Part shown: piece after piece, positions 23,496-59,269 of the stretch
Layout: every line of letters starts with the position of its first letter
How positions within the stretch are numbered: the stretch's first letter is position 1
Source: Fennellomyces sp. T-0311
Taxonomy: Eukaryota > Mucoromycota > Mucoromycetes > Mucorales > Lichtheimiaceae
Direction: 5' to 3'
Assembly: GCA_025266875.1 (NCBI GenBank)
Contig: JALLLT010000062.1
Coordinates: 107,676-171,675 of the forward strand
Length of the DNA: 64,000 bases
The notes under the pieces: generated by a model
The model's database searches: none
What the model saw: only the letters and a program-made list of their open reading frames with translations
Told to the model about the DNA's origin: nothing
Made by a program: the position numbers and the translations under genes

Positions 23496-24033
23496 CACTG
23501 CGCACCAGGTGAGGAATCCCCTACTAGGAAGGTAGGGGATTCTTAAGAATCTTTTGTTGGGGGATAAGACGCAGCTCGTACCCCCGGTTTCCAGAGTGAA
23601 AGCTGCATGAAGAACTGCATAATTGCTTGAAAAAGATGGATGCGGTGACTTTCTGCATGTTTCTGCACCAGCATGCAGAGTGCTGTATAAGCAATTTGTA
23701 ATTTTTGTGAACGACCAATTTTATTTTCAGAAATGGTGCTGATGCAGCAATGTTGAAATGGAATGGAGGAGAAGTCTTTAACAAGCGGTGTTGAGTTTAC
23801 AAAGGGTAGTCAATATTTCAGTACCATGAGAAACTTTAAAACTGGTGCCTTATATCGGCAATCCGACGCACATGGTGCATCAGCAAGAAAAAAGGAAGTT
23901 GGATGCGTTGTAGTATAGCGTCACGCATTGTACGAAAAGAAGTATACACGACTCTAGCACATATTGGTATTGTGCTATTGAAATAGTGATCCGTGTTCCT
24001 GTACACTTTACATATATAGAAGAGCCTAATAAA

Positions 24034-24233
24034 GCCAAGACAGCAAAATGCACGGTTCACGTTGCACATGACGGTCCATAACAAATTAGTAACCAATTGT
24101 AATGCAATGCTGCCAAGGCAAACACTGCTGTGTTGAGACTTAGTCGCTATGACGGTGCCAAGACAGATCGATATGAACTTGCCAAGGTAAACGGCCATGG
24201 TGATGTAGAAACGGTGCCAATGATGCTGCCAAG
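24034..24233 (+). promoter_or_regulatory. GCCAAG cluster upstream of tnp2, copy B
   Basis: GCCAAG occurs at 24034, 24112, 24157, 24181 and 24228, with a near-match GCCAAT at 24216. The cluster precedes a TATA box (CTATATAAG, about 24297) and the tnp2 start at 24358. Repeated hexamers in subterminal DNA are where the accessory protein binds in plant En/Spm; here that role is inferred. Confidence 0.5.
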
Positions 24234-24357
24234 ACGAATGACCAATGTGGCGAAGCATAATGGGACATTTTTTATTATTCGTGCATTGACGAAAGACTAT
24301 ATAAGAAGAATGTTCGAGCAGTAGGTATGGTATCAAATCGTACCTACCGTTTCTAAA

Positions 24358-27268: not shown

Positions 27269-27351
27269 TGGTTGTGATTCCGTTGGTGCGTAGAAGCGTT
27301 GCGTAGTGAAAAAAAAAATAAAAGTAAAAGGAGGGAAGCAAGCGGGCTTTA

Positions 27352-28398
27352 TTATGCCCAGTCGGCAATGCATCTCGTACTTTTTGAGAAAGCACAGCGT
27401 CTTCGTCCACAACTGGCTTTCTTTCTCGCTGTTGCCATCCAGGCACTTTTTTGCTCGCCTCAACAAGCCTATCCAGCTCGTTGATGTACTCCACAGCCTG
27501 TGGCATTACGGCGTTCAAGTCAGCATGATGCTACCGTTTTCACGAAACAAAAAAGCTTTTACCTTCGCACTGCAGAATCCAGGTTTCGAACCCAAAGGAT
27601 CGCATCTGACTCCGGATCCGAGATCTCCGGAGACATGCACTCCCTCCGAAGGAGGTCTTCTCCATTCGGGAACCTTTCCTCCAAGGATGCTGCGTTTCGT
27701 GCGCGAGCATCCTTGCGCGCCTTCATCTTCTGTTTTTCAGCGTAAGTAATCTGTACAAGCCTTAAAAAAAGCTACCCAAAAGTACTCACGCTCCACACCC
27801 TCTTGTTGCGCGTCTTGCGCTTCTCATCCTCACCAGCAACCTGAAGACCCGCATTCACCCGATCTTGCTTCCTCAGCTCCTTTTGTTGGCCGGTAAAGTA
27901 TTGGTGGATCTTTTTACGCAAGAATCCACCTTCCAGTGCACTTCGTCTATCACCGACCACAGCGGTATGGCAGCACGCAGCTATGGCTGCAGTTACCGAC
28001 TCGTTGTGCTCTGCACGGAAGGTCAGATTGTAATCATACCCTTGGCCACTGGGAAGAGAATCGTGGATGCGGGTGATGTTACTCTGGCAACGTTTTGTAA
28101 GTCGATGATATTGAAAGTATTGAATGCATTTTTCAAGTGTTCTTACAACAGCTTCTGCGCGGACCACATCATCCAATCCATGCACGGTACCCACCGCATC
28201 CTGCTGCTGCTGTTGCTGTTGCTGAGAAGCAATGTGCGACGCTAGGCCCTCGAGCTGCTGCCGCAACGCATAGTTTTCGCCCCGCAAGGTATCGCATTGC
28301 CCTTGCAGGTCTTGAACGGCCGCACGCAATCCGGAAAGCTCCAGCGATTCTGCGTGCTGTTGGCGCTCGTTGCTGTTGTTGTTGTTGTTGGAAGACAT
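27352..28398 (-). pseudogene. CACTA accessory protein, copy B
   Basis: Exon 1 starts at 28398 with Asn- and Gln-rich runs and a coiled coil (LRAAVQDLQGQCDTLRGEN), with a Q8 run from CAG repeats near 28205. The central domain (YDYNLTFRAEHNESV, LRKKIHQYFTGQQ) spans about 28130-27790. Exon 3 (about 27740-27565) encodes EKQKMKARKDARARNAAS and RRECMSPEISDPESD. The final exon (from about 27500) has VEYINELDRLVEASKK. The conserved C-terminal LPxWA followed by TAA (27352-27354) appears only after a one-base slip at about 27365. Without it the frame runs on into the tnp2 3' end, as far as 27168. The gene therefore probably makes an altered C-terminus. Confidence 0.6.
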
Positions 28399-28589
28399 CT
28401 AAAGGCTATCTAAGGATATTGATCTCTGGTGGGTGCTCTATCTTACTTTATAGGTGCGATCGAAGTAAGTGGATTAAAGAAAGTGAATGACAAGGAACTC
28501 ATTTTATGCTGCTTTTATTGCAGATAGACATCACGCATGACTTCACGTTTGCCAAGTGCAGCAGGACCGGGTTTTTTCTACAACGGTAT

Positions 28590-29040
28590 ATAAAGGGCGC
28601 AATTGCCGCTTTTCTTTCGTAACCTTCTCTTTCTTTTCCTGATCTTTTCTGCTTCCGTCTACACAGGCTCTCATAATATCCGGTAAGATTTCTATTCTCT
28701 CTGTTATACTAACACCGTCCCAATAGCTAGTTCATCATGCTCCGTTAAAACAAAAGGTTAGTTTCCAATGCGGCAGCAGCGTCTTCTTTCTTACTAACGC
28801 GTTTCAATACCAGTTCACCTTCGTTCACATTGCCATGACTACAGGTTAGTGGTGTTGAGATTGCAATCGCTGAAGGATTAACGCTAACGATTCTTTGTTT
28901 CTCACAGACATCTCACGGAATCCAAGTTGCGGCAAGTATCAACCGTTTTGTATTCACCATCGCATTGCTCCGGCCACCATCCTAGGCGTTACCTATAGCT
29001 GTTTAGACATTGTAGCATTACTGCCATAATAATAAAAAAT
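28590..29040 (+). other. Terminal transcription unit of CACTA B
   Basis: A TATA box (GGTATATAAAGG, near 28590) precedes a pyrimidine-rich leader. Three introns are apparent: GTAAGA at about 28683, GTTAGT at about 28758 and GTTAGT at about 28845, each with a good AG acceptor. AATAATAAAA lies near 29028. The only spliced frame I can see is a 43-codon one starting MTTDISRNPSCGK at about 28834. It shows no similarity to the C/D version, so coding is doubtful. The architecture and position, divergent from the accessory gene, are shared with copies A, C and D. Confidence 0.4.
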
Positions 29041-29289
29041 ATATTTGAACCATGCAATCGTATTCCATCCAAATTGCTACCATTTAATTTTTTGGTCGTT
29101 CATAAACCACTGCTACCAAATAATGCACTATAATTATGTATGCACAGCATCGCTGCTAAAAATCGATCGATCGAAAGCACATATTCTGTTACTCTTATGT
29201 ATGCACCGGCAGGCTATGTGCATATAAGCGTTATGCAGTCTGCGTCTCTTTTTGTATCTTTGCATGCATTCTGCTTTTGGTTAGTGTTG

Positions 29290-29429
29290 AGGAATCCCCT
29301 AGTGGATTCTTACGGAACCTTTTTTCAACTGAGGAATCCACTACTAGGTGATTCGCTAGGGGATTCTTGAGAATACCTTAGAGAATCCCCCACTTTTCAG
29401 ATAGGGGATTCCTCACCCACTGCGCAGTG
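29290..29429. repeat. GGAATCCCC subterminal repeats of CACTA B
   Basis: Units of the form GAGGAATCCCCTA or its inverse recur about five times between 29290 and 29415. Two more lie in the left end (23510-23545). They adjoin the CACTG terminus, the usual place of transposase or accessory-protein binding in CACTA elements. Confidence 0.75.
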
Positions 29430-29804: not shown

Positions 29805-32800
29805 ACACCCGGAGGTGTGAGAATATAAAATAGGCAAGTCCATGTACCTCAGTAAAGTATGATTGGCTAGCAGCTGCAGATAGTTGGGGGTGCATGCTGG
29901 GAACTGTCCGAATACTGGGGGGAGAGACAGCTTTTTGGGAGAGACTGTTACAAACATTCTCTATTTGGAAAGAATGGTAGCACAGAGTTCGAGAGCTCTG
30001 CTAAGTCTATTATCACGAGCTGTAAGATCCATATGAGCGTTAGAAACATACTTTAATCAATATAAAATAAAATGATACAGTAATATAAGTGAGAAGAATA
30101 TATATGTGGTGGATGTGAGAGCTCATGTATTCTATGGCGCATCAGTCATATAAATGCTATATAAGCTGGTTTGGAGCAGATACCAGAGAGAGCCGAACTT
30201 GCTAACGTTGACGACGTAATTTCCAATCATTGAGCAGCAAGGCTGTAGATCTACCACTTCGTCCAGATCCAAGCTATCAAGACGATATAAAACCTCGGCA
30301 GGGTTGGTAGGGGTTACGATGAGATTTCCAGCGAGGTCTTTGAGACACGTTGAGTATATCGAATTTGGGCAGAATGTTGCTACATCAGAGATATCGCGTA
30401 TTGGCTGATATACTTTCAGATGAGCGAACTTCGTATTGTCCTGTGTAATTATATCTTCGATTTGTCCCAGAATATATACTGATGTCTCGCAATCGACGAA
30501 AAACCCAGCAACACCTTTCTTGAAGTCTTTGCGGGCAGTATTGTTGTCGGCATATTCGCGATCTTTACCCAAGTAAGTCTCTGTAAAGTCCTTGCGGGTG
30601 CCGTTGTCGTCCCAATAACCACCTTCGATTATATGCCGAAACATGAACTGACGCCCGAAAAGAGTTAAGACATCACGCGATGGATTATGCCTATTAGTAA
30701 GAAAAATGTGTTCTCGGATAAACTTGTTGAATCGTTCGCCCTTTTCACTTTCATAATGGATGGCGGTTGCGAAGCGGACAAGATCGTGCTGTAAATGGTG
30801 TAAAATATGCAGTTTCGATGTTCTGCTTATTACTCTTGGACCTTGGTTGCTGTATGTACAGCAGAGATCCTCGACTTCGTTGATAGCAGTCGTGAATAAC
30901 TTGACTTTTTGATCTACGAGCTGGATGTACGCTTCAAAGTCACCGTGGATCTCTCCCATATATACCAAGGATATCAGTTCGCCATGTACCACGAAGCATT
31001 TAAACCAAGCGTCAATAACAGCTTTTCTGTCACCGTCCAATCCTTGCCACTCGTTATATCGTAGGTCGTTCAAGATAATAGGAAGTTGCTGCGACATTAT
31101 CTTGAAATCTCGTCCTACGAATGAGGTACTTGATAACCGCAAGCAGCTGCCCATCGTACGACCGAAAGCTTTAGAGGTGTAACTTCGTAATTTGGTTTGA
31201 AGTTGGCTGGTTTCAAGTGCATTGAGATACTTAACCAATGAATACGTGATATACTTTGTGACTCCAAGCATCAGACAGTGCAAAATCTCGACCGGAAGAT
31301 CCTTCGTTTGATCGAAAGCACGCAACTGAAGTAGCACTTCACCGCCAGTGAGCTTAAGACCTAATTTACCCAGGTCATTTGTGGTCTCTCGTCCATTGGG
31401 GAGGAGTATGTCATGTCTACAAGTCGTGTTCGTAGTCAAGGCAGCAATATCGTCCTTGGAACGAGAAATGGCGTTGTTGTGATCGTTGATATTTAACGTT
31501 TCATCTGCAGATCGAACTTGGTAGAAGCACTTGCGACATGGAAAATTTGCCCTTGCGCCTTTATGACATGCGAGTTCCGAGTGTCGTGCATTATCGGCAA
31601 TGATAAAGTTGAGGGGCGCAATTACCAATACGTTTTCATTGCAGCTAGAGTCGTACATGATCATTCCGTCCTCTAACTGCTTAAGATCAGAAAAGATATC
31701 GGCAAGCATATCCATAGCTGAGAGACGCTTATGAACGCATAGGAGGAATGTATTTTCTCTCTTGTTCCTTTCTTGTAGAGGCAGTGCAGATGGAATCATC
31801 GACCAACTATCGAATTTGTTCCATTTTTTTGAAGTGTTCCCACTGGTGTCATCCGAGAACAGGTTAAGCGGGATGACACGGACCTTTGAGTACAACCCTT
31901 CGTCACTTGGTTTGCATCGGTATCGTGCTTCGAAGATACTATTAGTATCTTTTAGCATGTATGGTATGTTGTCGAAAAAGGTGTCAGCATTAGGAAGAAG
32001 GACTTGACAGTGATGTCTGCATTCTTGAAGCCGGTTGTTGTGTCCATATAGCTGAACATTGTCCATTACAAGTGGCACGAAGTGAAACTGTCGTTCTTGA
32101 TTTCCGTCCAAATATTGTGAGAGCGTTACGACAGTAGAGCTGTTGCCGGACTGCAATTCATAAGCTACACATGCATCTGCCATGACGACGTCGTTCATTG
32201 TGTAGAACCGTACAAGCTTATACAGCATTGTGGAATGATTATCACCTTCTGGGACAACGAAATCGCCCACCCAGAAATCATCTTGTCCAACAGTAATCAT
32301 CGGATGTTGGAAGTATGGACATGTGTGCCATTTTTTCCCTTGTGCCAATGATGTACACGCATCTGTCGATTTGTCGGGAAGCGCGCTAAGTAGCCCTGAT
32401 AAACGAGGGTTAGCAATTAAATGCTTCACCACTTCTGACGGTTTGTACATGTAGAGGTCGACAAGCTCCTCTACTTTCTCATTCTCCCCGTCTGCGTTCC
32501 TTCTCGTGACGTTTATAGTTTTTTCTGTACGAGTCATCTTGAGCTGAGGAACTCTGTTGCTTTTATAGCTCTCAGAGTTCGTTACCCAATGCATAGTTGG
32601 GGCTGTCAACTCAGGATCCTCGCGTGCCATATCGATCACATCTTTCACCAATGCAAGAATTTGTCGCTTAACCGGTCGAGGGGAAAGCCGGTCATCACCG
32701 TCAAACAGTGCACGCAGACGAAACTCAAGCTGATTACCATATGGATAGTATGGATTCGCTCCTCGAGCAACCGATGCCGAAAAATCTAAAACGAATTCGT

Positions 32801-34111
32801 TCGGTTGTTCGACAAATGGTGGAGGATCCTCATACTCATCGTCGTTGGCATCATCATCTCGTTCCTTTTCCAATAAATAAGATTACTCATGGTTATATAT
32901 GACTTAAGATAATCCTGTACTCTTACATCGAATACGGCTCCAGTATTCACAACCCGGAAACGATCGACGTTAGCACCAGGGCTGGAATTGTCAAGGGCAA
33001 GGTTCATGGTATCATCAGAATCACTTTGTCCTGCGTCGTCAAAATCACCATGCTCGAGGCTTTCGTTTTCGACTTCCTGCATAGGAATACTTGGCTCCGA
33101 GTTTTCGCCACTGGTGCCGGGTCTATTTTCGAAACGTTGCTCATTTGCGCGGCACGCTGGAATCTCAATGGTAGGCACTTGTAGTCCCTTTGCGATCCTG
33201 TCCTTTAAATAATCGAGATGCTTCTCAGTTTCCAGGTGGCGAGTGCGGTTTTTCGAGGTAAACTGCCCACCACAACCGCACTTGTGGTTTTTTCTCACTC
33301 GAGGCTTCATTGGCTTGCTGTTAAACTTGAACATTGAGTTCTCCATTGTGTGTTTGTGTAGAGTGAAAGAGGGGCAAATTTAAAAAGCAGCGCGCAGCAA
33401 ATTATCTCCAAACTCCTTTCTTTCGCTCCTTTCTCTTCAACAATAAAAAAAACGCGTCTTCTTATTGCTTAATGAATTGTAAGTCGATTGTCTAATTTTA
33501 CCCATTCAAATAACTAATAACGGCTATTCTAGGTTAGATTTTAAGCTAAATGCAATTCCATACAGACAATAAGGTAAATGAACTTGAACCTCTAAAGATT
33601 TACTTTTAATAGGCCGTACGGTTTCTGTTACTCTATCATGGTAAGCCTCGTCAAACTTTATTACAGACTTCATACTAATAGCAAGTTTTGTTTTAAGACG
33701 TGTGGTTCTCTTAATATATCATGGTAAGCTCTATCAAAACTTATAGCATACTTTATGTTAACAATAATTTTCGTTTTAAGATGTCAATATCGCGTCCGTG
33801 AAAATAGGATGGCCTTATCGACTGATGAGACGCGACTGACACATCATTAGTAGGGACAACGCTTGAATGGCTGAAATGGTGGGTCAACACGCTGAGAGGT
33901 CAACAGGCTGCAAGCGAGTTCTAGTGATATTTCCTGTCCACCCTTTATTCGATAAATAAAAAAATTGGTCAGAGCATCGTCTCTTTAGCACCCCAACAGT
34001 ATACCACATGACTTTCCACATCGTCGTAAAAGGAAGCTCTTTTGGCCTCTCTTTTTTTTTACTAACTCCAAATGGTAATTCTGTATTTGGATACCCAGAC
34101 CTCCGGGGGTG
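29805..34111. mobile_element. DDE DNA transposon with ACACCC termini, inserted in Ty3-B
   Basis: 4307 bp. The left end reads ACACCCGGAGGTGTG and the inverted right end CACCCCCGGAGGTCTG. Flanks share TAC (29802-29804 and 34112-34114). The exact split between a 2-bp TA or AC and a 3-bp TAC duplication is ambiguous. Its one gene, on the minus strand, is open throughout. The 3' flank of that gene (29805-30131) and the 5' flank (33347-34111) show nothing else beyond AT-rich DNA with two imperfect direct repeats near 33630-33790. Confidence 0.85.
30132..33346 (-). CDS. Putative fungal DDE transposase, intact
   Basis: Two exons. Exon 1 starts at 33346 (MENSMFKFNSKPM) and holds a zinc finger-like KCGCGGQFTSKNRTRHLETEKHLDY and an acidic linker. 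It ends at a GTAAGA donor near 32926. Exon 2, about 910 codons, is open to 30132. Blocks include MYKPSEVVKHLIANPRLSGL, FWVGDFVVPEG, VIPLNLFSDDTSGNTSKKWN, FIIADNARHSELACHKGARA with a following CRKC, and VEILHCLMLGVTKYITY. These recur in many fungal proteins derived from CMC/KDZ-type DNA transposons, but I cannot place it in a named family with certainty. The DDTSGN and LGVTKY blocks occupy the places of the FAPFDSG and DPMHNLFLG blocks in tnp2. The reading frame is intact and the TIRs are clear, so this copy may be able to move. Confidence 0.75.
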
Positions 34112-35248: not shown

Positions 35249-35751
35249 ATACACTGCGCAAAATTAGAAGTATCTGTAACTTTCAAAGGTTACAGAAAGT
35301 TACAGATAGTTGCAGTACGGATGGGGCCCGTGAGAATGTACAGGGACCCCGAAATTTTATCGCGATGGATGTTGATTAGAGTACAAAAATAGACAATGTC
35401 AATATCGGCAGCAGTATTCCGAAGTGTAACGTTCAAAAGTGCAACCAAAAAAGCAAACGGCTGAACCTAGTTTGGGCAGGAGCACTGTATTTTCTGTGCA
35501 ACAAGAAGACTGCTTGGAAATTGTCGGCAGGGCAAGAGCAGAATGATCATTTATCTTTAGTTTGCTTAGAAATAAAAAATACATTGAGAGAAAAATGCAG
35601 TATGCTGCGTTGTAGTATAAAAAGGTAGCTGATTTTTAAGCAATGGCGTTGGAAAAATGGTTGTAATGAAGTTAATTCTTCAATGGCAAGACAATCACAT
35701 GGGTAATTCTTAAGTTAATGTTGTAGATATAAAGTCAACCGTTCTTAGAAT

Positions 35752-36012
35752 GCCAAGGACGCACATATGCTTAAACTTCTAGACGCGTCCTTGTAATGAA
35801 AAAGTGTCATGCAACTCTATATTATGCAGCTTACTATTTTTACCGACAGTCTGAATGTAGGACAGCATCCAAAACGGGCAATCTATTGTATTGAAAAACG
35901 TGATAGTAATGCGTATTAAACTGACGTCTAAGGGATCAAGCAATGCCGCCAAGAGGGAAAGATACACAGCCAAGAGGATGACGGATGGCCAAGAGAAAGA
36001 CATGCTGCCAAG
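35752..36012 (+). promoter_or_regulatory. GCCAAG cluster and TATA box upstream of tnp2, copy C
   Basis: GCCAAG is found at 35752, 35948, 35969, 35988 and 36007. The last four are spaced 21, 19 and 19 bp, about two helical turns, so they face one side of the DNA. A TATA box (GATATAAAAG) follows at about 36068 and the tnp2 start at 36144. Copy D has the same array at 50972, 50993, 51012 and 51031. Confidence 0.6.
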
Positions 36013-36143
36013 GAAACATGTTCGTAGCGTGCATGTATTTGTAGGGACGTTTTGTTTATGTGAAAAGATATAAAAGCAGAATAAGAAGGCTGCCAGAAAA
36101 ATCTACATTAACACCTCCTTTACAACACCCACCCATATCATCG

Positions 36144-39100
36144 ATGCCGGGACAACCTACTTACCTATGTGTGTGTACACGCTGCACCGGCAGAAATCGG
36201 CCAGGGAGATATGTGACAGACGAAGTATACCGCGCTCACTTTGAGCAACAAGTTGCTCGAAGACTCAGACGTTGTAAGTCGAAAAAATGGCATAATGGAA
36301 TTGATGATATTAACAGTTGTATAGTCACCCCACCTACTACCACTGCTGCCAGCCATCAGACCGAAGATCAATCCGAACCAATGGCTATCGATGACGAAGT
36401 TGACAACGATGGTAGGTCTGCAACATATCACTGAAAGATAGCTTACTGATGAAAAATAGAAGCTTTGCCTGGAAACTGGGATGTAGGTACAGCAGAGCCT
36501 ACCCTGGAGCCGCTACTGCAAGAGTCATTCGACGATCCGATCAACCAGGATCAAAACGAAATGAATGAGAACATGGAGAACCAGTTCGATTCTTTGCTGA
36601 ACGGCGATGAAGGCGATGACCAAGGTTGGTTAAGAAGATGCTAAACAAAAAAGCCGGTCGTTAATAAGAAAATATCAGATATGTCCGTTGACAGCCCAGC
36701 TACTATGGTAGCCCTACGCCTAATTGATATGATCCCACAGCCATACCTTTTCGTCTTCATGTTCATCGTTCTCTTCCAGCTCCATTACCTCTCGGAACGA
36801 ACGACCGCCATCCTGATCACCTTCATCGTGACCTTGCTTGCCACCCTTCCCATCCCTGAAAGGTTCAACTTCCCTGAAACCTTGGCCACCATCCGCCACT
36901 ATGTGGGCTTCGATCAATTGACGGATACACTTACCATGTATGTCGCTTGCTCCAAGTGCCACGCCATATATCTCCCGGAACGTGCTCGAGATACATGCAC
37001 TACCACGGCTTTGAATGGAAACGTATGCGGAAATGCCCTGTTCAAGATATCGACTGTCGGTGGGCGTCGTGTTCGTGGGGCTCCACTTAAGCAGTACGCA
37101 TACTACAAGCTAGGGCACAGCCTCAAAAGGCTTTTCACGCGCAACGGCTTTGAGGACAAGATCATCGAATGGAGACAGGATCTCTTCAATGGCACCGAGT
37201 TTCGCGACATTTACCACGGTTTGAAATGGAACAGGCTCAAAGATGCAAACCGCATTCCTTTTGTTGCTGACGATCACTCATTGATGCTCACGCTCAATGT
37301 CGACTGGTTCGCACCTTTTGACAGCGGTTACTCTTGCGGCGCTATATACCTTACGGTCAATAACCTACCCCGTGCGGATCGATTCAAAACGGAAAACGTC
37401 GTCCTTATGGGCGTCATGCCTGGGCCACGCGAACCAAAGACCTACGAAATGAATAATTATTTGGAGCCCCTCGTGGATGATCTTCTTGCCTTCTATGCGG
37501 GTGTTCGTATGAAAACTTTCAAGTACCCAAGAGAAACCATGGTACGCGCCGCTCTGTTGAATGTCGCTTGCGATATCCCGGCCAGCCGTAAGGTGTGCGG
37601 CTTCACGGCACATTCCAGTACACGTGCTTGCAATAAGTGCAACCGCGAGTTTGTCACCGATCAGGAGACTGGCAATATGGTCTACGCCGGTACGGACATT
37701 CCCCATGCAAGCTTGCGAACCAAACGAAGCAATCGTATTGCAGCCGACAACTGGAGAAACGCAGCGACCCAGGCTGAGCGGCAAAGACTTGAACGAGAGC
37801 ATGGCACCCGCTGGTCACAGCTTCACAGGCTTAGCTACTTTGACCCAGTACGATGCACCATAATTGACCCTATGCACAATCTTTTCCTTGGCACAGCTGC
37901 TCGTATGGTCAAAGTCTGGAGGACCCGGGGCGTCTTCACGGAATCGGTGCTCAAGAATATGCAAGAGATTGCCGATCGTGTTGTGCTGCCCTCTGGGATG
38001 CCGACGCTTCAGCGCAAGATCGAGCGAAAATTTGGCTTCATGACGGCGGATGATTGGAAGGTGTGGACCTTGGTGTACCCCCTTACGTGCTCCAGGGGGT
38101 TTTGCTCCCAGACTATTACGAACACTGGATGCTGTTTGTCGATGCCTGTCGATTGTTGGCGCAAACGAGGATCACGTATGACAATATCGCCGATGCACAC
38201 CAGAAACTTGTCGAATTCGTAGACAACTGTGCGATGTTATACGATGATTCCATTGTGACGCCCAACATGCACCTCCATCTCCACCTCCGCGAAGTTCTGC
38301 AAGACTTTGGCCCCATCTATGCGTTCTGGTTGTTCAGTTTTGAGAGATACAATGGGTATATGAAGGATGCTGATACCAACCAGAAGGATTGCTTCGAGGT
38401 CACGTTTATGAAGCGATTCATTGAGAAGACTGGTGCCATTGATTTCGTTCAGGCCGAGGCTGCTCGCTTTGGGAGGAATTCGGCCGAGCTCAGGATGCTG
38501 CTACAGATTGCTGGACAATCTTCTCGTCACGTACTGCAGCAGGGCCCAAGTACCTTCGATTATGAAACGTTCATCAGCTACTCTATGAATCCAAGCCTAT
38601 CCACCAATGTCACTGGATCTGAGCCGCTGCCCCCTTCGACTGCGATCACCATGAGCGATGGCGTTGACGCAAACCTTAGCGAAGAACACCACGCACACTT
38701 GCTTGAGTACTATGCGTATACGTATGGTACGGCTGTTTTGCCTGCGAGTGACGGGATTCCAGCTCATGCGTTTGCCATGCGGAAGGCTGAGAAGTTTCGG
38801 ACGATTGAAATCTTCGGGCAAACATATCGATCGGCAGCTGCAGCATCCTCGCGCGGATCCTACATTCAGGTTGTCTATTGGCGCGGTGAGCAACCTGGCG
38901 CGTACACCGGCCGTGTGCAGTATTACTTCAAGCATTCACTGGTTGTCAATGGCTCATCAGTGGTCCATCATCTCGCTTTCGTTCGTTGGTACCGCACCGT
39001 ACCGGAATCCCACCAGCGATTCACTTTAGGCGGCCTTGAAGAATGGCTATGGCAGTTCACAGATGAACGCTACGATTGTATCATACCTGTTCACCGCATC

Positions 39101-39196
39101 CACTCACAAGTCGCTGTTGTTGCTCATGGGCCGCAAGATGACGTGCAAACAGCCAGGATGGTTGTGATTCCGTTGCCAAAACGGATTACTGTTTAA
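36144..39196 (+). pseudogene. tnp2: CACTA transposase tnp2, copy C (one frameshift)
   Basis: Same three-exon structure as copy D: exon 1 from 36144 (MPGQPTYLCVCTRCTGRNRPG), a short acidic exon, and a main exon from about 36679. Domains are as in D. One T is missing at about 38079 relative to D, in a C-rich run, which shifts the frame after MTADDWKVWTLVY. The remaining C-terminus continues in the next frame to 39196 and is otherwise undamaged. A homopolymer sequencing error is possible, but the accessory gene of this copy is also frameshifted. Confidence 0.9.
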
Positions 39197-39278
39197 AAAA
39201 ATAAAAAATTGTTCTTGACAAAGGTCCAAAACTTTACTCAAAAATTGGCTACTAAAAGAAGCAGGAAAAAAAAGGCTT

Positions 39279-40519
39279 TTATTGTTGCTGAGGTCGGCGC
39301 ACAGCCCACGAAGGCAACCTGCTCGCCAGCTCGGGTGTCAACACGAAGTCGCACTCGAGGTCCACTGGTCTACGCTCGATTCTACCAGTGGCACTTCCAC
39401 GACCAGTGCCCACTCGGCGTCGTACGTTGCGACCTTCCTCGACAGAGTTGCCGTTGTCGTTGCTGTCGCTTCTTCTGCGGCGGCTTCCTGCTGGTGGCGG
39501 CGACCGGTTGCCAACTTCCTCACCGCTGTCAGCTGATCCAGTTTCTTGAAGTACTGGACAGCCTACATATGCATACAACTTCTAGCTTAAAAACAAATAC
39601 CCTTCACTTAAAATTTGGTTACCTGTTGGGAGCGATAGCCCACCTTGTAGACGTTGACAACCTTATCACTTCCGTCAGCTTCGCCATCTGTCAACTCTGG
39701 AGACATACACTCCCGAGCGAGAAGTGCACTCCCGCCTTGGAACGGGGATCCCTCTGCCTCGAGCAAGTCCACATTATCAGCATACGACTGACAGCGCGCA
39801 TCATGCTTCTATATATGACCAGTTTTTCTTTTTAAGTGCCACCTTCCTTGTTGAAAATCGTTTATTGACTCTTACCTCTCGCACACGCTGGTACCGGCGC
39901 TTGTCGTCGTTTTGCTCCTCCTTTCGCTGTTCGCTCATGCGTGCATCATCACGGCGGGAGCGAAAAATGTTGTGCACCTTCTCGCGCACAGTCTTTTTGT
40001 CTACCTGGCAGCTTGGTCTGCCACAAACCCAGTTAACCACTTCCGTGGCCAGCTGGTTGTTCGGTGCCCTGTTGAAGTATACACCCAGATCGAACTCTCT
40101 GGGTGACTCTTCGTTGGCAAGCGACTCCAATTTCTGATGGATGAGGTCCTATGTCACTACGCGTATCAGGCTAAAGCAGTATCAGCATTGCATTATTTTT
40201 TTATTACCTTTGCGTGCTTGATCTCTTCACCAGTATATGCTCGGACAGCAGGGGCAGTAGGCGCACTGACTACAGGGGCAGCGGGTTGCACGCTCTGCTG
40301 CGCAGCATACAGGGCGCTTAAGTCCCGCAAGCGACCTTCATATTCCTCCTGCCTGGCTTGCACACGACGGTACTCGCCCAAGAGATATCGCAACTGGGCC
40401 TGAATATCATCAGGCACACCAGTTGCTTGGTGCAGGGTCCGGCGATCGTTGAATGACAGCTCCTCATCACTGCTATCGCCACTGTTACTGTTGCCAAGAG
40501 TGAAGTTAAAGTTGGACAT
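39279..40519 (-). pseudogene. CACTA accessory protein, copy C (one frameshift)
   Basis: Four exons parallel to copy D. Exon 1 begins at 40519 (MSNFNFTLGNSNSG), exon 2 covers about 40125-39885 and exon 3 about 39835-39632. The final exon starts near 39565. Relative to D, one base is missing near 39507, so the spliced frame enters an Ala/Thr-rich run and stops at 39338. The D-like basic C-terminus ending LPSWAVRRPQQQ is in another frame, ending at 39279. The rest is conserved. Confidence 0.7.
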
Positions 40520-40689
40520 CTAGACTATGCGTAAGTATAAGCATTTACGTAAATTAAACAGCGAACATTACGGTAATTGGAGCGAGCTGAGGTAAGATAA
40601 AGCGGTATGAAATGGATACTTTCCAACATGGTGTTTACACTTTATATATTTGGTACTGCCGCCACGTTAGGTGGCAAGCGTCGCAACGG

Positions 40690-41340
40690 CTATAAAAGTC
40701 GACTACGGAGCTCGGGTTCTTTTCTCTTCCTTTAACTTTTTCTCTTCAGTTTTATCAATGTAGTCCATGAGTGCCAAGGTAATAACAGTGCTGTTTCCTT
40801 CGCGCTGCCTCCATATAATCATTGACTTTTTCCAAAGCACAGCACTACCGATTGTATTCAAGGCATTATCCTCTCTTTTCGTTGACACCGGAGCTTTTCT
40901 GGCCAGAACACCGAGCATATCACAACATGGTAAGCACCCTCTCAAAGCGTGGTCTGTTGTACTTTTCTTAACAGCATCTCTTCCTTTGCAGCCATCACTC
41001 CATTTCGCAAACTAAATCAATCAAGGTGCGTATAATTCGTAAACGACATTGCAAGTGAACTAATAAAATCTTAAGAATAGGCTTGCCCGCACTCGTATTA
41101 TTTCAAAACTGTAAGGTATTCTGCTTACTTTTTCTCCACTGTACATGTTTTCTAACTTTCTCCATTCTAGTTACCGTCATGCCACCCTTTTCTCCGGAGT
41201 TCTTTACTCCTTCTGGTGTTCCTTACGCCGTCCATCGTTATTTTCCTGGTTGACTAGTCGCTAGTGATTTATGTAGACAGATAGAAATTTCACCCATTGT
41301 ATACTCCTTTCTGAAAATAAAAATGCTTTGCTGCTATAAT
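40690..41340 (+). other. Terminal transcription unit of CACTA C
   Basis: A TATA box (CTATAAAAG, about 40690) precedes a pyrimidine-rich leader and ATG at 40767. Donor and acceptor pairs are apparent: GTAAGC at about 40930 to TTTGCAG, GTGCGT at about 41024 to CTTAAG, and GTAAGG at about 41113 to TTCTAG. AAAATAAAAATG near 41320 could be a polyadenylation signal. In C, one spliced frame of about 104 codons runs from MSAKVITVLF to VHRYFPG. In D an extra base breaks that frame, and the remaining peptide differences are mostly non-synonymous. Coding is therefore unproven, but the transcript structure is conserved. Confidence 0.4.
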
Positions 41341-41757
41341 CATAATTACCACCACCAATTTTGCCAGTTGCGCAACTAAAATTAGCGATACTATTGCTGA
41401 AAAAATATGCTATTCAACATCGGATGCTTCTTCCGAAATCAATAAGCAACGTCCCAGTACCCCCATCTGTGTACCCTACTACAAAAAAGCTTCTAACCGG
41501 CCGGTGCATTACACAACGATTAAGGTTTACCGCATGGTTGCTAATGCCTTTTACAGCAAAAAAGACGGCACGTCCGATTGGCTGGTGCTTACAAGTATCT
41601 GTAACTTTTAAACTTACAGATACTCGATAATAGTCAGTTTCGTTACAAGTATATGTAACTTTTGAAAGTTACAGAAAGACAAACATATACCCGGCTATCT
41701 GTTTGTTTCCCTGTAACTTTTTTACTTACATATTCTTCTAAAAATGCCCAGTGATAG

Positions 41758-50196: not shown

Positions 50197-50971
50197 ATGT
50201 GCAATGCGATGAATAGTTTTAATAAAGATGGCAATGCCAATAGTTATGAGCAAAAGCAATATGTACATAATGGATCCTGTTACACTGCGCAAAATTAGAA
50301 GTATCTGTAACTTTCAAAGGTTACAGAAAGTTACAGATAGTTGCAGTACGGATGGGGCCCGTGAGAATGTATGGGGACCCCGAAATTTTATCGTGGTGGA
50401 TGTTGATTAGAGTACAAAAATAGGCAATGTCGATATCGGCAACAGTATTCCGAAGTGTAACGTTCAAAAGTGCAACCAAAAAAGCAAACAGCTGAACCTA
50501 ATTTGGGCAGGAGCACTGTGCAACAAGAAGACTGCTTGGAAATTGTCGGCAGAGCAAGAGCAGAATGATCATTTATCTTTAGTTTGCTTAGAAATAAAAA
50601 TACATTGAGAGTAAAAATGCAGTATGCTGCGTTGTAGTATAAAAAGGTAGCTGATTTTTAAGCAATGGCGTTAGGAAAATGGTTGTAATGAAGTTAATTC
50701 TTCAATGGCAAGGCAATCACATGGGTGATTCTTAAGTTAATGTTGTACATATAAAGTCAACCGTTCTTAGAATGCCAAGGACGCACATATGCTTAAATTT
50801 CTAGACACGCGTCCTTGAAATGAAAAAGTGTCATGCAACTCTATATTATGCAGCTTACTATTTTTACCAACAGTCTGCATGTAGGACAGCATCCAAAACG
50901 GGCAATCTATTGTATTGAAAAACGTGATAGTAATGCGTATTAAGCTGACGTCTAAGGGATCAAGCAATGTC

Positions 50972-51036
50972 GCCAAGAGGGAAAGATACACAGCCAAGAG
51001 GATGACGGATGGCCAAGAGAAAGACATGCTGCCAAG
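50972..51036 (+). promoter_or_regulatory. GCCAAG array upstream of tnp2, copy D
   Basis: GCCAAG at 50972, 50993, 51012 and 51031, spaced 21, 19 and 19 bp, on the same face of the helix. A fifth copy is at about 50776. The TATA box GATATAAAAG is at about 51092 and the tnp2 start at 51168. Confidence 0.6.
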
Positions 51037-51167
51037 GAAACATGTTCGTAGCGTGCATGTATTTGTAGCGACGTTTTGTTTATGTGAAAAGATATAAAAG
51101 CAGAATAAGAAGGCTGCCAGAAAAATCTACATTAACACCTCCTTTACAACACCCACCTATATCATCG

Positions 51168-54100
51168 ATGCCGGGACAACCCACTTACCTATGTGTGTGT
51201 ACACGCTGCACCGGCAGAAATCGGCCAGGGAGATATGTGACAGACGAAGTATACCGCACTCACTTTGAGCAACAAGTTGCTCGAAGACTCAGACGTTGTA
51301 AGTCGAAAAAATGGCATAATGGAATCGATGATATTAACAGTTGTATAGTCACCCCACCTACTACCACTGCTGCCAGCCATCAGACCGAAGATCAATCCGA
51401 ACCAATGGCTATTGATGACGAAGTTGACAATGATGGTAGGTCTGAAACATATCACTGAAAGATAGCTTACTGATGAAAAATAGAAGCTTCGCCTGGAAAC
51501 TGGGATGTAGGTACAGCAGAGCCTACCCTGGAGCCGCTACTGCAAGAGTCATTCGACGATCCGATCAACCAGGATCAAACCGAAATCAATGAGAACATGG
51601 AGAACCAATTCGATTCTTTGCTGAACGGCGATGAAGGCGATGACCAAGGTTGGTTAAGAAAATGCTAAATAAAAAAGCCGGGCGTTAATAAGAAAATACC
51701 AGATATGTCCGTTGACAGCCCAGCTACTATGGTAGCCCTACGCCTAATTGATATGATCCCACAGCCATACCTTTTCGTCTTCATGTTCATCGTCCTCTTC
51801 CAGCTCCATTACCTCTCGGAGCGAACGACCGCCATCCTGATCACCTTCATCGTGACCTTGCTTGCCACCCTTCCCATCCCTGAAAGGTTCAACTTCCCTA
51901 AAACCTTGGCCACCATCCGCCACTATGTGGGCTTCGATCAATTGACGGATACACTTACCATGTATGTCGCTTGCTCCAAGTGCCACGCCATATATCTCCC
52001 GGAACGTGCTCGAGATACATGCACTACCACGGCTCTGAATGGAAACGTATGCGGAAATGCCCTGTTCAAGATATCGACTGTCGGTGGGCGTCGTGTTCGT
52101 GGGGCTCCACTTAAGCAGTACGCATACTACAAGCTAGGGCACAGCCTCAAAAGGCTTTTCATGCGCAACGGCTTTGAGGACAAGATCATCGAATGGAGAC
52201 AGGATCTCTTCAATGGCACCGAGTTTCGCGACATTTACCACGGTTTGAAATGGAACAGGCTCAAAGATGCAAACCGCATTCCTTTTGTTGCTGACGATCA
52301 CTCATTGATGCTCACGCTCAATGTCGACTGGTTCGCACCTTTTGACAGCGGTTACTCTTGCGGCGCTATATATCTTACTGTCAATAACCTACCTCGTGCG
52401 GATCGATTCAAAACGGAAAACGTCATCCTTGTGGGCGTCATGCCTGGGCCACGCGAACCAAAGACCTACGAAATGAACAATTATTTGGAGCCACTCGTGG
52501 ATGATCTTCTTGCCTTCTATGCGGGTGTTCGTATGAAGACTTTCAAGCACCCAAGAGAAACCATGGTACGTGCCGCTCTGTTGAACGTCGCTTGCGATAT
52601 CCCGGCCAGCCGTAAGGTGTGCGGCTTCACAGCACATTCCAGTACACGTGCGTGCAATAAGTGCAACCGCGAGTTTGTCACCGATCAGGAGACTGGCAAT
52701 ATGGTCTACGCCGGTACGGACATTCCCCATGCAAGCTTGCGAACCAAACGAAGCAATCGTATTGCAGCCGACAATTGGAGAGACGCAGCGACCCAGGCTG
52801 AGCGGCAAAGACTTGAACGAGAGCATGGCACCCGCTGGTCACAGCTTCACAGGCTTAGCTACTTTGACCCAGTACGATGCACCATAATCGACCCTATGCA
52901 CAACCTTTTCCTTGGCACAGCTGCTCGTATGGTCAAAGTCTGGAGGAGCCAGGGCGTCTTCACGGAATCGGTGCTCAAGAATATGCAAGAGATTGCTGAT
53001 CGTGTTGTGTTGCCCTCTGGGATGCCGACGCTTCAGCGCAAGATCGAGCGAAAATTTGGCTTTATGACGGCGGATGATTGGAAGGTGTGGACCTTGGTGT
53101 ACTCCCCTTACGTGCTCCACGACGTTTTGCTCCCAGACTATTACGAACACTGGATGCTGTTTGTCGACGCCTGTCGATTGTTGGCGCAAACGAGGATCAC
53201 GTATGACAATATCGCCGACGCACACCAGAAACTTGTCGAATTCGTAGACAACTGTGCGATGTTATACGATGATTCCGTTGTGACGCCAAACATGCACCTC
53301 CATCTCCACCTCCGCGAAGTTCTGCAAGACTTTGGCCCCATCTATGCGTTCTGGTTGTTCAGTTTCGAGAGATACAATGGGTATATGAAGGATGCTGATA
53401 CCAACCAGAAGGATTGCTTCGAGGTCACGTTTATGAAGCGATTCATTGAAAAGACCGGTGCCATTGATTTCGTTCAGGCCGAGGCTGCTCGCTTTGGGAG
53501 GAATTCGGCCGAGTTCAGGATGCTGCTACAGATTGCTGGACAATCTTCTCGTCACGTACTGCAGCAGGGCCCAAGTACCTTCGATTATGAAATGTTCATC
53601 AGCTACTCTATGAATCCAAGCCTATCCACCAATGTCACTGGATCTGAGCCGCTGCCCCCCTCGACTGCGATCACCATGAGCGACGGCGTTGACGCAAACC
53701 TTAGCGAAGAACACCACGCACACTTGCTTGAGTACTATGCGTATACGTATGGTATGGCTGTTTTACCTGCGAGTGACGGGATTCCAGCTCATGCGTTTGC
53801 CACGCGGAAGGCTGAGAAGTTTCGGACGATTGAAATCTTCGGGCAAACATATCGATCGGCAGCTGCAGCATCCTCGCGCGGATCCTACATTCAGGTTGTC
53901 TATTGGCGCGGTGAGCAACCTGGCGCGTACACCGGCCGTGTGCAGTATTACTTCAAGCATCCACTGGTTGTCAATGGCACATCAGTCGTCCACCATCTCG
54001 CTTTCGTTCGTTGGTACCGCACTGTACCGGAATCCCACCAGCGATTCACTTTAGGCGGCCTTGAAGAATGGCTATGGCAGTTCACAGATGAACGCTACGA

Positions 54101-54221
54101 TTGTATCATACCTGTTCACCGCATTCACTCACAAGTCGCTGTTGTTGCTCATGGGCCGCAAGATGACGTGCAAACAGCCAGGATGGTTGTGATTCCGTTG
54201 CCAAAACGGATTACTGTTTAA
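51168..54221 (+). CDS. tnp2: CACTA transposase tnp2, copy D, intact
   Basis: Three exons (51168-51435, 51484-51648, 51703-54221) total 2952 bp, or 983 residues. ATG at 51168 lies 70 bp after the TATA box and is the first in-frame start giving the Cys cluster LCVCTRCTGRNRPG. Exon 2 is acidic. Exon 3 has two hydrophobic segments (YLFVFMFIVLFQLHYLSER onwards), a CSKCHAI finger half, LNVDWFAPFDSGYSCGAIY, NVILVGVMPGPREPKT, CDIPASRKVCGFTAHSSTR with CNKCNREF, TIIDPMHNLFLGTAARM, TPNMHLHLHLREVL and FERYNGYMKDADTNQKD, then a C-terminal region with FGQTYRSAAAASSRGSYIQ. Acidic residues in the DSG, DPMHN and FERYNG blocks are the likely catalytic triad of this superfamily. The product should bind element ends and catalyse excision and insertion. 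Confidence 0.92.
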
Positions 54222-54303
54222 GAAAATAAAAAATTGTTCTTGACAAAGGTCTAAAACTTTACTCAAAAATTGGCAACTAAAAGAAGCAGGAAAAAAAAGG
54301 CTT

Positions 54304-55570
54304 TTATTGTTGCTGAGGTCGGCGCACAGCCCACGGAGGCAGCCTGCTCGCCAGCTCGGGTGTCAACACGAAGTTGCACTCGAGGTCCACTGGTCTACGC
54401 TCGATCCTACCAGTGGCACTTCCACGACCAGTGCCCACTCGACGTCGTACGTTGCGACCTTCCTCGACAGAGTTGCCATTGTCGTTGCTGTCGCTTCTGC
54501 TGCGGCGGCTTCCTGCTGGATGGCGGCGACGGGTTGCCAACTTCCTCACCGCTGTGAACTGATCCAGTTTCTCAAAGTACTGGACAGCCTACATATGCAT
54601 ACAACTTCTAGCTTAAAAACAAATACCCTTCACTTAAAAATTTGGTTACCTGTTGGGAGCGATAGCCCACCTTGTAGACGTTGACAACCTTATCACTTCC
54701 GTCAGCTTCGTCATCTGTCAACTCTGGAGACATACACTCTCGGGCGAGAAGTGCACTCCCGCCTTGGAACGGGGATCCCTCTGCCTCGAGCAAGTCCACA
54801 TTATCAGCATACGACTGACAGCGCGCATCATGCTTCTATATATGACCAGGTTTTCTTTTTAAGTGCCACCTTCCTTGTTGAAAATCGCTTATCGGCTCTA
54901 ACCTCTCGCACACGCTGGTACCGGCGCTTGTCGTCGTTTTGCTCCTCCTTTCGCTGTTCGCTCATGCGTGCATCATCACGGCGGGAGCGAAAAATGTTGT
55001 GCACCTTTTCGCGCACAGTCTTTTTGTCCACCTGGCAGCTTGGTCTGCCACACACCCAGTTAACCACTTCCGTGGCCAGCTGGTTGTTCGGTGCCCTGTT
55101 GAAGTATACACCCAGGTCGAATTCTCTAGGTGGCTCTTCCTTGGCAAGCGACTCCAATTTCTGATGGATGAGATCCTATGTCACTACGCGTATCAGGCCA
55201 AAGCAGTATCAGCATTGCAATATTTTTTCATTACCTTCGCGTGCTTGATCTCTTCATCAGTGTATGCTCGGACAGCAGGGGCAGTAGGCACACTGACTAC
55301 AGAGGCAGAAGGCTCACTGACTACAGGGGCAGCGGGTTGCACGCTCTGCTGCGCACCATACAGGGCGCTTAAGTCTCGCAAGCGACCTTCCGTTTCTTCC
55401 TGCCTTGCTTGCACACGACGGTACTCGCCCAAGAGATATCGCAACTGGGCCTGAATATCATCAGGCACACCAGTTGCTTGGTGCAGGGTCCGGCGATCGT
55501 TGAATGACAGCTCCTCATCACTGCTATCGCCACTGTTGCTATTGCCAAGAATGAAGTTAAAGTTGGACAT
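54304..55570 (-). CDS. CACTA accessory (TnpA-like) protein, copy D, intact
   Basis: Exons: 55570 to about 55235 (acidic start MSNFNFILGNSNSGDSSDEE, coiled coil QLRYLLGEYRRVQARQEE, Pro/Ala/Val linker), about 55175-54904 (central domain FDLGVYFNRAPNNQLATEVV, then a long basic helix), about 54838-54650 (KHDARCQSYADNVDLLEAE; RECMSPELTDDEADGSD; YKVGYRSQQ), and about 54590-54304 (AVQYFEKLDQFTAVRK, Arg/Ser-rich linker, LPPWAVRRPQQQ). It converges with tnp2, and the stop codons are 82 bp apart. Four homologues in the window keep the same landmarks despite wide divergence. Role inferred: binds subterminal repeats, helps tnp2, or represses the tnp2 promoter. I know of no named domain that fits. Confidence 0.7.
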
Positions 55571-55739
55571 CTAGACTATGCGTAAGTATAAGCATTCACG
55601 TAAACTAAACAGCGAACATTACGGTAATTGGAGCGAGCTAAGGTAAGATAAAGCGGTATGAAATGGATACTTTCCAACATGGTGTTTACACTTTATATAT
55701 TTGGTACTGCCGCCACGTTAGGTGACAAGCGTCGCAATG

Positions 55740-56390
55740 ACTATAAAAGTCGACTACGGAGCTCAGGTTCTTTTTTCTTCCTTTAACTTATTCTCTTCAG
55801 TTTTATCAATGTTGTCCATGGGTGCCAAGGTAATAACAGTGCTGTTTCCTCCGTGCTGTCTCCATATAATCATTGACTTTTTCCAAAGCACAGCACTACC
55901 AATTGTATTCAAGGTATTATCCTCTCTTTTCGTTGACACCGGAGCTTTTCTGGCCAGAACACCGAGCATATCACAACATGGTAAGCACCCTCTCAAAGCT
56001 TGGTCTGCTGTACTTTCCTTAACAGCATCTCTTCCTTTGCAGCCATCACTCCATTTCGCAAACTAAATCAATCACGGTGCGTATAATTCATAGACTACAT
56101 TGCAAGTGAACTAATAAAATCTTAAGAATAGGCTTGCCCCACACTGGTATTATTTCAAAACTGTAAGGTAATCTGCTTACTTTTTCTCCACTGTGCATGT
56201 TTTCTAACTTTCCTCCATTCTAGTTACCGTCATGCCACCCTTTCCTCTGGAGTTCTTTACTCCTTCTGATGTTCCTTACGCCGTCCACCGTTATTTTCCT
56301 GGTTGACCAGTTGCTAGTGATTTATGTAGACAGATAGAAATTTCACCCATTCTATAGTCCTTTCTGAAAATAAAAATGCTTTGCTGCTAT
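55740..56390 (+). other. Terminal transcription unit of CACTA D
   Basis: Same promoter, leader and intron layout as in copy C: TATA (CTATAAAAG) at about 55741, ATG at about 55818, introns with GTAAGC, GTGCGT and GTAAGG donors, AAAATAAAAATG near 56370. Relative to C, one extra base in the third exon (about 56140) changes the frame of the last exons, so a conserved protein is not supported. Confidence 0.4.
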
Positions 56391-56662
56391 AATCATACTT
56401 ACCACCACCAATTTTGCCAGTTGCGCAGCTAAAATTAGCTGAAAAAATATGCTATTCAACACCGGATGCTTCTTCCGAAATCAATAAGCAACGTCCCAGT
56501 ACCCCCATCTGTGTACCCTACTACAAAAAAGCTTCTAACCGGCCGGTGCATTACACAACGATTAAGGTTTACCGCATGGTTGCTAATGCCTTTTACAGCA
56601 AAAAGTATGGCATGTCCGATTGGCTGGTGCTTACAAGTATCTGTAACTTTTAAACTTACAGA

Positions 56663-58961
56663 TCTATAATATAATAGACAACTCCCGAAAAATAACCAGA
56701 AATTATTAGTAAAAAACCTTCCTTATATGGAATGCTCCTGTCGGTGTGAGCCTCGAGCGCACAAATGAAACATAGCCTATGTTTGCGCTGTAGATTCGCT
56801 TTGTCGTATCAATATCATTGCATCAGTTCAATTAGAAATACTCTACCAAAGGGCTCATAATCGATGCGTGTATGTGTGTGCAAACACTGTATGCAATCAC
56901 TGATGTTGGTGATAAGGCTCTTCTTTGCGTTATGGACTCGCTTTGTGGTATCAATGTCAACATATCTGTCGATCAGTGTTTAACTTTCGTGGGTGAAATG
57001 TAGCCTACGTTTTCAGTTCGGATAGAAGAATTCCATCTACCATTGCACTAGACATCTGCTCCGCTAAGGGAATATGTACTTCCCTCTCCTCAAGTTTTCG
57101 CACTGATAGCTATCTATGATTTTGCTGAGTGGCAAGTCAATAGAGAAAGTGAAGTTAGTTACAATCAAAACACGGGAGTTGACATTGCTTTTAGGATTAA
57201 TATCATCTGACTCTTCTCTTGCAGGGCATGAACGATACTGTGAATTCTCACGTTGCAACTTTTCGAAAAACTGTCGGCTACCTACGTGAGAAGCGTGCTG
57301 TGTATTTGTCTATCCAAACATCTTATGACTTGAATCATGGTCATCAGTACACTGCATCAACTGCTGATAATGTAGCTGTATTATTGATTGTTAATAGTTA
57401 GTTGCGAAGATCCAGGGGCTGAGATGCTGTGCTGTTTCGTAGAATCGGCAGAATAACTCATATCCACAGTAACAATAGCGTGCATGATTTACGGAATTAT
57501 GTTCTAATGTATCCGCATGTTGCAACAGAGTAGAGAAAAGGTATCCATTATCGGGACAGTGGTGATAGGATAGTAATAGCATTTGTGGGCCTCATCGTAG
57601 CGACCAAAACACTGTTTCTGCTGGGGAATACTATGCATACTGTATCTACGAGAGAAGCGATTCCTCGCTACAGCGTTATGAATGCCTCTGGCATCGCTAT
57701 ATCGTCAGTATGTACATCAAAATTAAGCATCATCAAATGTATTACTATTATACAAAGCAATATCAATTGCGTGTTGAACTGCATAGCTGCATAGGTTAAT
57801 ATACTTCAACAGAATACTAGCAACGTAAACCTGGAACTTGCAAGAAGCCTTGATTGCAGTGTAATATACGAATACTATCATAGCCTTCTTATAGTGTGGC
57901 GTATCTCTGCTTAAATATTCCAAAGTGTCTTGAACCACATCTCCTTTCTGGCGTTTCACTGCCTGAAAAATCATCTTCCATGCTTTTCTCTTGCTACTGC
58001 TGTTGTGGCTGTGTGGTGTCGCTCAATTGGAAACTTCAATGACGAGACCAAAAATAAGATAATGTTTTATTGAGGAAAACTACTCTCTATTTATAATGAT
58101 GCTGAGCCGGGACGGAGAAGGTGAATGCTTTTCTATCAGAGCCGAATCTGTGTGATCGCCGTAATCCCTAATGATCGTACTGCTTTATTACGAAGGAACG
58201 GATAATAATGCAAAGACTGAGTTAACCTGAATGGTCCCTCTTGAAGTCTGAACCCAGATTAAGGTCTCACTGACGCACAAGCCAGTGAACGGATCAATAG
58301 ATAACTGTGCAGTTGTTGGTGTCGAAATAAAGGAACGGATGTAACAAAGGCTGAGATGGAAAGGCATGTAGACAATGGATGGCTGGTATGTCAAGATACG
58401 ACAGGTTGTTCTTCTCAGCAGCTTTTCTTCAAGCGATATGCGTAATGATGTATATTTTGCTTGATGTGTCACTATAGCTCTACACTTTTTCAAAATGGCT
58501 TGCTTTTGTATCATATGAAGTGCATTTCAACTTTAAGCATGACTTTTAAAATTGTGAAACAAAGTACATCATTAGCTTAAGGATGGCCCGAATTTAACGC
58601 TTCGACACACCAACAGTAAATTCCAGATAAACTACGGATGAAGCATCACATGACTCCCGCTAACCAGTTTGTTTTCTGAGACATGAAACGATACTGGTGA
58701 AATCAATGTTGCCATATATCCCCTATGTAACTAATTTGTATACAGAACTATATATTTCTTAATAAAATGTATATCGCTCAAGCTACAAGATATTGTAGAA
58801 GTTTCAATGAATGGGAAATAACAACAGGGGGTGCAGGGGTCTCCCTGCTGAGGGTTTGGGGGCAGGCCCCCAACGAGCCGCTGGAAATGGAGCACGAAGG
58901 TGTTGACACGAAGCGTAGCGGAGGGGCTCAACCCCGGATGTGCGTAATGGACTAAGGCTCG
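56663..58961. mobile_element. 2.3-kb Helitron-like insertion in CACTA D
   Basis: Comparison with copy C shows a clean insertion between A (56662) and T (58962) with no target duplication. The left end starts TCTATAATATAATAG. The last 130 bp are GC-rich and hold three hairpins. Insertion between A and T, a 5' TC and hairpins near the 3' end fit Helitrons, but the 3' end reads CTAAGGCTCG, not CTRR. Inside there is no Rep/helicase gene and no recognisable protein. Two imperfect repeats of a TCGCTTTGTNGTATCAAT segment lie at about 56790 and 56930. If it is a Helitron, it is non-autonomous. Confidence 0.5.
58833..58935. repeat. Three GC-rich hairpins at insertion 3' end
   Basis: GCAGGG-GTCT-CCCTGC (58833-58848), TTGGGGGC-AG-GCCCCCAA (58856-58873, perfect 8-bp stem, 2-base loop) and GGGG-CTCAA-CCCC (58923-58935). 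They stand out sharply from the AT-rich surroundings. Confidence 0.85.
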
Positions 58962-59269
58962 TACTCGATAATAGTCAGTTTCGTTACAAGTATATGTAAC
59001 TTTTGAAAGTTACAGAAAGACAAACATATACCCGGCTATCTGTTTGTTTCCCTGTAACTTTTTTACTTACATATTCTTCTAAAAATGCCCAGTGTTAGCT
59101 ATTATTCCTGTATTTAGAAAGAATTCAAATCAACGTTTAGGAAAAATTCAAAAAATGATCAAATTGAATTTTTTGGCTAATGTAAAGAATTTGGCCAGTC
59201 CGAGGAAAAGCAGTCACATATGTTCATAGGCTATACTGGCGCGTGCCTAGGTGTGGTGCCTTAAACTTT

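Follow-up and report, generated by a model that had tools for sequence, protein, structure and literature searches.

A conserved second gene convergent with tnp2 in CACTA-type transposons of Fennellomyces sp. T-0311, and its possible role at the transposon ends

The window analyzed here, a 64,000-nt stretch of the genome of the mucoralean fungus Fennellomyces sp. T-0311, carries four copies (A to D) of a transposon in which a tnp2 transposase gene is accompanied by a second, accessory gene. In copy D the accessory gene is intact, with four exons on the minus strand (55570 to 54304) that encode 359 amino acids (aa) and are separated by three phase-0 introns of 59, 67, and 61 nt. The original prediction of a four-exon gene convergent with tnp2 was confirmed at D. 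Copy A is organized likewise, and its gene model is identical in every residue to an annotated hypothetical protein of this strain (P0001, 331 aa). The main features are as follows.

50283-59094, plus strand: element D, with CACTG...CAGTG ends and the 3-bp target duplication TTA on either side (50280-50282 and 59095-59097).
50283-50345: terminus of D on the tnp2 side, bearing GTTACAGA-type motif copies in both orientations (their positions taken from copy C).
50774-51036, plus strand: GCCAAG array of D (copies at 50774, 50972, 50993, 51012, and 51031), in a promoter-like position, with a TATA-like box downstream near 51093.
51669-54221, plus strand: tnp2 of D, an uninterrupted 850-codon frame (Transposase_21, PF02992).
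54304-54588, minus strand: accessory gene D, exon 4, with Y-x3-LD, LPPWA, and the stop codon.
54650-54835, minus strand: exon 3, with RECMSPELTD; by alignment, the basic long helix ends here.
54903-55175, minus strand: exon 2, helical domain with FDLGV.
55235-55570, minus strand: exon 1, with the start codon and the N-terminal coiled coil (the latter from models of two relatives).
About 56671-58962: insertion of ~2.3 kb in the accessory-side end of D, not in copy C.
58960-59094: terminus of D on the accessory side, bearing GTTACAGA-type copies.
35252-41753, plus strand: element C, target duplication ATA.
23496-29429, plus strand: element B, target duplication TAC.
6059: tnp2-side end of element A, the other end lying beyond the window (in L040); target duplications nonmatching.
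765-1055, 1112-1369, 1425-1595, and 1660-1935, plus strand: exons of accessory gene A (331 aa), laid out as in D.

Most of the window's own copies of the accessory gene are decayed. In copy C (40519 to 39279, minus strand) the frame is broken in exon 4, and in copy B (from 28398, minus strand) the 3′ part is decayed and frame-broken. The original prediction that all four proteins keep a terminal LPxWA thus holds for A and D, the only copies in the window with both C-terminal motifs in one frame, but not for C, where Y-x3-LD and LPSWA sit in different frames, nor for B, where LPxWA is absent from every frame; an intact B-type copy elsewhere in the genome (L071) ends in LPDWA. The predicted F/Y-D-x-F motif is likewise present, but in the looser form [FY]-[DN]-[FYL]-x-[FLV]. 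Intact relatives with three introns were found at six other loci, i.e., C41 (357 aa), C108 (327 aa), C38 (288 aa, B type), C33 (340 aa), C169 (349 aa), and C180 (339 aa), giving a range of 288 to 359 aa for the intact proteins. Those of D, A, the C41 type, and the B type are homologous pairwise (29 to 40% identity, z scores of 13 to 33 in global alignments against 200 shuffles).

Searches for known relatives of the protein were negative. The first member matched no Pfam family at an E value of ≤1, and among 25 of the 30 families matched by eight members, mostly coiled-coil or unrelated models, the best E value was 0.0057. The lack of recognizable homology to plant TnpA, as anticipated, was borne out in that the Pfam models gave no similarity to TnpA/TNP1; no PDB or foreign homologue was found, and neither sequence nor fold pointed to a recognized DNA-binding family. 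In structure models the protein combines a coiled coil with a basic domain of three helices; the same helices were seen in the two members modeled, and in A a basic long helix has a net charge of +10 across residues 143 to 202. The three-helix domain was compared with the Zeste-type (Myb/SANT-like) DNA-binding fold.

Purifying selection, a further element of the original prediction, was evident in the comparison of the accessory genes of C and D (dS 0.102, dN 0.020, dN/dS 0.20). Ratios between D and L002, L003, L004, L007, and L008 were 0.12 to 0.29 (0.12 for L003), and L005, which has three stops, gave 1.06 against D and 0.49 to 0.84 against the others. Among the very young pairs formed by C, L004, and L008 (dS 0.004 to 0.008), the ratio was 0.59 to 1.76 on only 3 to 9 changes. 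The pattern is one of selection keeping the gene in jumping lineages and drift in dead copies. Across types the accessory protein diverges more than the transposase, identity to D being 26 to 33% for the former and 55 to 66% for tnp2. By eye and uncounted, L056 and L008 differ from sister copies by several R-to-H/C, E-to-K, and V-to-M changes of the kind that C:G-to-T:A decay (RIP-like or methylation linked) would leave.

Genome-wide, the accessory gene sits by tnp2 and not mainly away from it, in line with expectation. A convergent tnp2 domain was found within 5 kb of at least 52 of the 78 accessory loci, against 0.64 expected from random placement; the tnp2 list held 150 of 240 candidates, and the pairing counts are therefore lower bounds. 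A second tnp2 list supplied a partner for 4 of the other 26 loci. Five of the 22 orphan loci then remaining were read: three had a tnp2 tail, another was truncated at a contig end, and the fifth had none. Conversely, among the 40 tnp2 genes whose 3′ end is preserved, at least 35 are accompanied by an accessory gene, 34 of these at a distance of 67 to 392 nt. Four of the five partnerless tnp2 3′ ends were read: two retain the partner's last 27 residues and one abuts a contig end, and at the 3′ end of the tnp2 of C93 no remnant of an accessory partner was detected. The two genes are thus arranged tail to tail across the genome, in one unit bounded by terminal inverted repeats (TIRs) and target site duplications (TSDs). 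Together with the dN/dS values, these data support the view that the accessory gene belongs to the transposon as its conserved second gene, kept by purifying selection and usually neighboring tnp2.

Both genes lie inside elements with CACTG...CAGTG ends; the termini of C and D read CACTGCGCAAAATTAGAAG ... CTTCTAAAAATGCCCAGTG. The tnp2 beside gene D matches PF02992 with an E value of 5e-16, and the family scored above its curated cutoff in D, C, and B and also in the A region (genome search, C142:111270-111701); the tnp2 of C is broken across frames 36645-38222 and 38054-39196. CACTG ends with matching 3-bp TSDs were found in 8 of 11 elements (D, C, B, C38, C169, C41, C108, and C33). Of the remaining three, both ends were identified in A and C180, with no TSD match, and C47 showed one end only. 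Among four additional elements, C172 and C182 have both ends with unmatched TSDs, and C142_74 and C167 have one end. The assignment of the copies to CACTA elements stands insofar as they combine a tnp2 transposase, CACT-type TIRs with 3-bp TSDs, and motif arrays at both ends, as in CACTA/EnSpm, but the termini themselves read CACTG, not CACTA.

Other mobile sequences are present in the window. An 857-bp inverted repeat, 100% identical between 8288-9144 and 11691-12547 and with CAGTG/CACTG at its inner boundaries, possibly represents two oppositely oriented copies of another CACTG element. A 916-codon frame between B and C (30132-32882) has a weak Plavaka match (PF18759, E value of 7e-4, below the cutoff). 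A retroelement frame (22203-23546) that matches retropepsin and reverse transcriptase extends into the left end of B (from 23496) with its last 51 bases only.

Each subfamily repeats an 8-bp motif of its own, in both orientations at both termini and starting within the TIR. The motifs are as follows.

GTTACAGA: C/D type.
GAATCCCC: B type, with arrays at both ends of B.
AATAATCC: A type (A, C169, C180, C33, and C142_74).
AGAATACT: C41 type (C41, C172, and C167).
GATAATGC: C108 type (C108 and C182).

With up to one mismatch, the own motif was counted 8 times in C, 9 in B, 11 in C41, and 9 in C108, the motifs having been chosen from the very ends in which they were counted and the ends being all related by descent. 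The best 8-mer reached these counts in 4 of 100 dinucleotide shuffles for C and in none for B, C41, or C108. The A type is weaker, AATAATCC counts of 6 (A), 5 (C33), and 2 (C169) being reached by 55, 71, and 100 of 100 shuffles; the best 8-mer of A, the shifted word ATAATCCC, occurs 9 times, the highest count in any shuffle being 8. For 10-mers, the best word was reached by none of 60 shuffles in C, B, and C108 and by one each in A, whose top 10-mer is a word other than its 8-mer motif, and in C41; C169 and C180 failed this test (7 and 3 of 60). The arrays are therefore clear in the C/D, B, C41, and C108 types and weak in the A type. Density in the terminal 2 × 300 bp exceeded that of the interior 26-fold in C and 40-fold in B. 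The ~2.3-kb insertion in D splits the outer motif copies from the remainder of the element.

Among the 14 elements and five motifs, no exact match to a motif was found in the ends of another type. Allowing one mismatch, cross-type matches did occur, chiefly linking the A type with the B type and the A type with C108 (e.g., the A-type motif 3/0 in C108 and 2/1 in B, and the B-type motif 4 in C142_74). Some site positions recur with a different sequence, namely, 17-19(+) in four of the five types and 40-43(−), 54(−), 62-64(+), and 74-76(+) in three of the five each; the C/D type has none of the recurring positions. In the types that share these positions, an element's sites have changed in concert, which is what one would predict were they read by a trans-acting protein that the element itself encodes; conversion among repeats could be another route to such joint change.

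Our preferred explanation, which we rate somewhat above even, is that the accessory gene is the second gene of a CACTA/EnSpm element whose product dimerizes, binds the terminal motifs, and pairs the ends for tnp2. The protein would dimerize via its N-terminal coiled coil, and the basic three-helix domain encoded by exons 1 to 3 would bind the short motif at both termini in both orientations. Once bound, it would label the two termini and bring them together for the tnp2 transposase, the part played by TnpA in maize En/Spm. From one subfamily to the next, protein and motif would switch together, so that each subfamily would read its own ends. Dimerization, DNA binding, reading of the arrays by the accessory protein and not by tnp2, and a need for the protein in transposition are steps that we infer from sequence and models; an essential role and a TnpA-like function are plausible on this basis.

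The arrays might instead be read by tnp2 itself. A frame with a C-x-C-x2-C...H motif lies close to the expected tnp2 start in 7 of the 8 elements scanned, C41 being the exception; the motif itself varies, and the frame is a possible second DNA-binding part. In D this frame is located near 51168, upstream of the main tnp2 frame, and its counterpart in B is near 24358. Within the main frame, the first 150 residues are less conserved between D and B (36 to 45%) than residues 151 to 600 (48 to 74%). Both observations would suit a tnp2 whose N-terminal Cys/His motif recognizes the arrays at the ends, with the accessory protein as a partner or bridge without sequence specificity. We consider this unlikely, as tnp2 overall changes far less between types than the accessory protein does and, in maize, the subterminal repeats are recognized by TNPA, both proteins being needed, according to the available portion of the soybean study (PMC2613891).

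Family-specific arrays bound by a changing, element-encoded protein are also found outside CACTA elements, in the VANDAL elements of Arabidopsis, which are MULEs and belong to another superfamily. VANC21 and VANC6 are described in the accessible part of that work as each binding a different short motif that is arrayed in its own VANDAL family, with proposed coevolution (PMC5735166), and TNPA, too, reactivates a methylated promoter, as the SmTRC1 report states in the part available (PMC1636069). By analogy, the accessory protein could bind its subfamily's arrays to lift the silencing of its own element, with no direct role in excision. This appears quite improbable given that the VANDAL arrays are, in the same partial source, in one orientation and in noncoding regions generally (PMC5735166), whereas those of Fennellomyces are in both orientations and start inside the TIR, at both ends, where cutting occurs.

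The transposase side carries a second short repeat, GCCAAG, present at least once in all 14 elements. Three to five copies point toward tnp2 in 12 of them, C169, C180, and C33 having one reversed copy in addition; A and C47 have one copy in each direction. In the eight elements checked, the forward copies lie ~10 to 320 bp upstream of a TATA-like box, and in seven elements the accessory side holds at most one copy each. The arrays are alike across all subfamilies examined, though their accessory proteins share only ~30% identity. Because the pH regulator PacC has GCCARG as its binding consensus in the excerpt available (PMC3618310), a host factor would suffice, and it is simpler to read the arrays as part of a promoter controlled by the host, the involvement of PacC being suggested by the consensus match. 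That the accessory protein binds these arrays and regulates tnp2, as originally predicted, is very improbable and probably wrong: it would account for the tnp2-side enrichment (reached by 0 of 300 shuffles in D, C, B, C38, and C169, 7 in C41, and 9 in C108) but not for a promoter-like position, a mostly single orientation, near absence from the accessory side, and constancy across such divergent proteins. The terminal motif is the better candidate target and fits a TnpA-like end-binding protein that would coevolve with its sites.

A broader reading, possible if rather doubtful, is that this one genome harbors at least four, and probably five, two-gene CACTA systems in which accessory protein and end motif have switched together, with largely separate transposition but a shared GCCAAG (PacC-like) host control of transposase expression, and that the accessory proteins form a new end-recognition family.

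A tnp2 transposase plus a second protein is the organization of maize En/Spm (TnpA with TnpD) and of plant TnpA/TNP1 CACTA elements, with which the Fennellomyces elements also share, from what the available text describes, 3-bp TSDs, CACT-type TIRs, and subterminal motifs that differ by family; the second proteins of different plant families may themselves be unlike each other (PMC2613891). In Fennellomyces, however, the second protein is encoded by a separate convergent gene, whereas that of maize En/Spm arises by alternative splicing of one transcript, and it differs from plant TnpA in having no detected sequence similarity, an N-terminal coiled coil, and CACTG ends. SmTRC1 of Schistosoma, among the animal and fungal TRC/CACTA elements, likewise combines tnp2 with fast-evolving proteins for which a TnpA-like role was proposed, but there the extra proteins arise via alternative splicing, as far as the accessible text indicates (PMC1636069). 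Fungal EnSpm, Plavaka, and the related CMCT and CNIRT6 (Cryptococcus) elements share the EnSpm-type transposase, 3-bp TSDs, and CAC/CACTG ends; in the sections available they are described as encoding a transposase, in some cases alongside a TET/JBP gene, without this second gene (PMC12730594, PMC12810828). That CACTA elements use a variable second protein and that tnp2/EnSpm elements occur in fungi was thus known, on the partial texts at hand (PMC1636069, PMC12730594, PMC12810828). The accessory family, its convergent layout, and a subfamily series with different terminal motifs were not found in searches of the open-license literature.

The soybean work, in the portion available, raised the question of how the subterminal repeats of CACTA elements and their TnpA-like proteins change in step (PMC2613891). 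With four or five types in a single fungal genome and small intact genes (288 to 359 aa), such co-change becomes testable by cross-binding. The findings also suggest that tnp2 elements outside plants employ a second protein of unrelated sequence.
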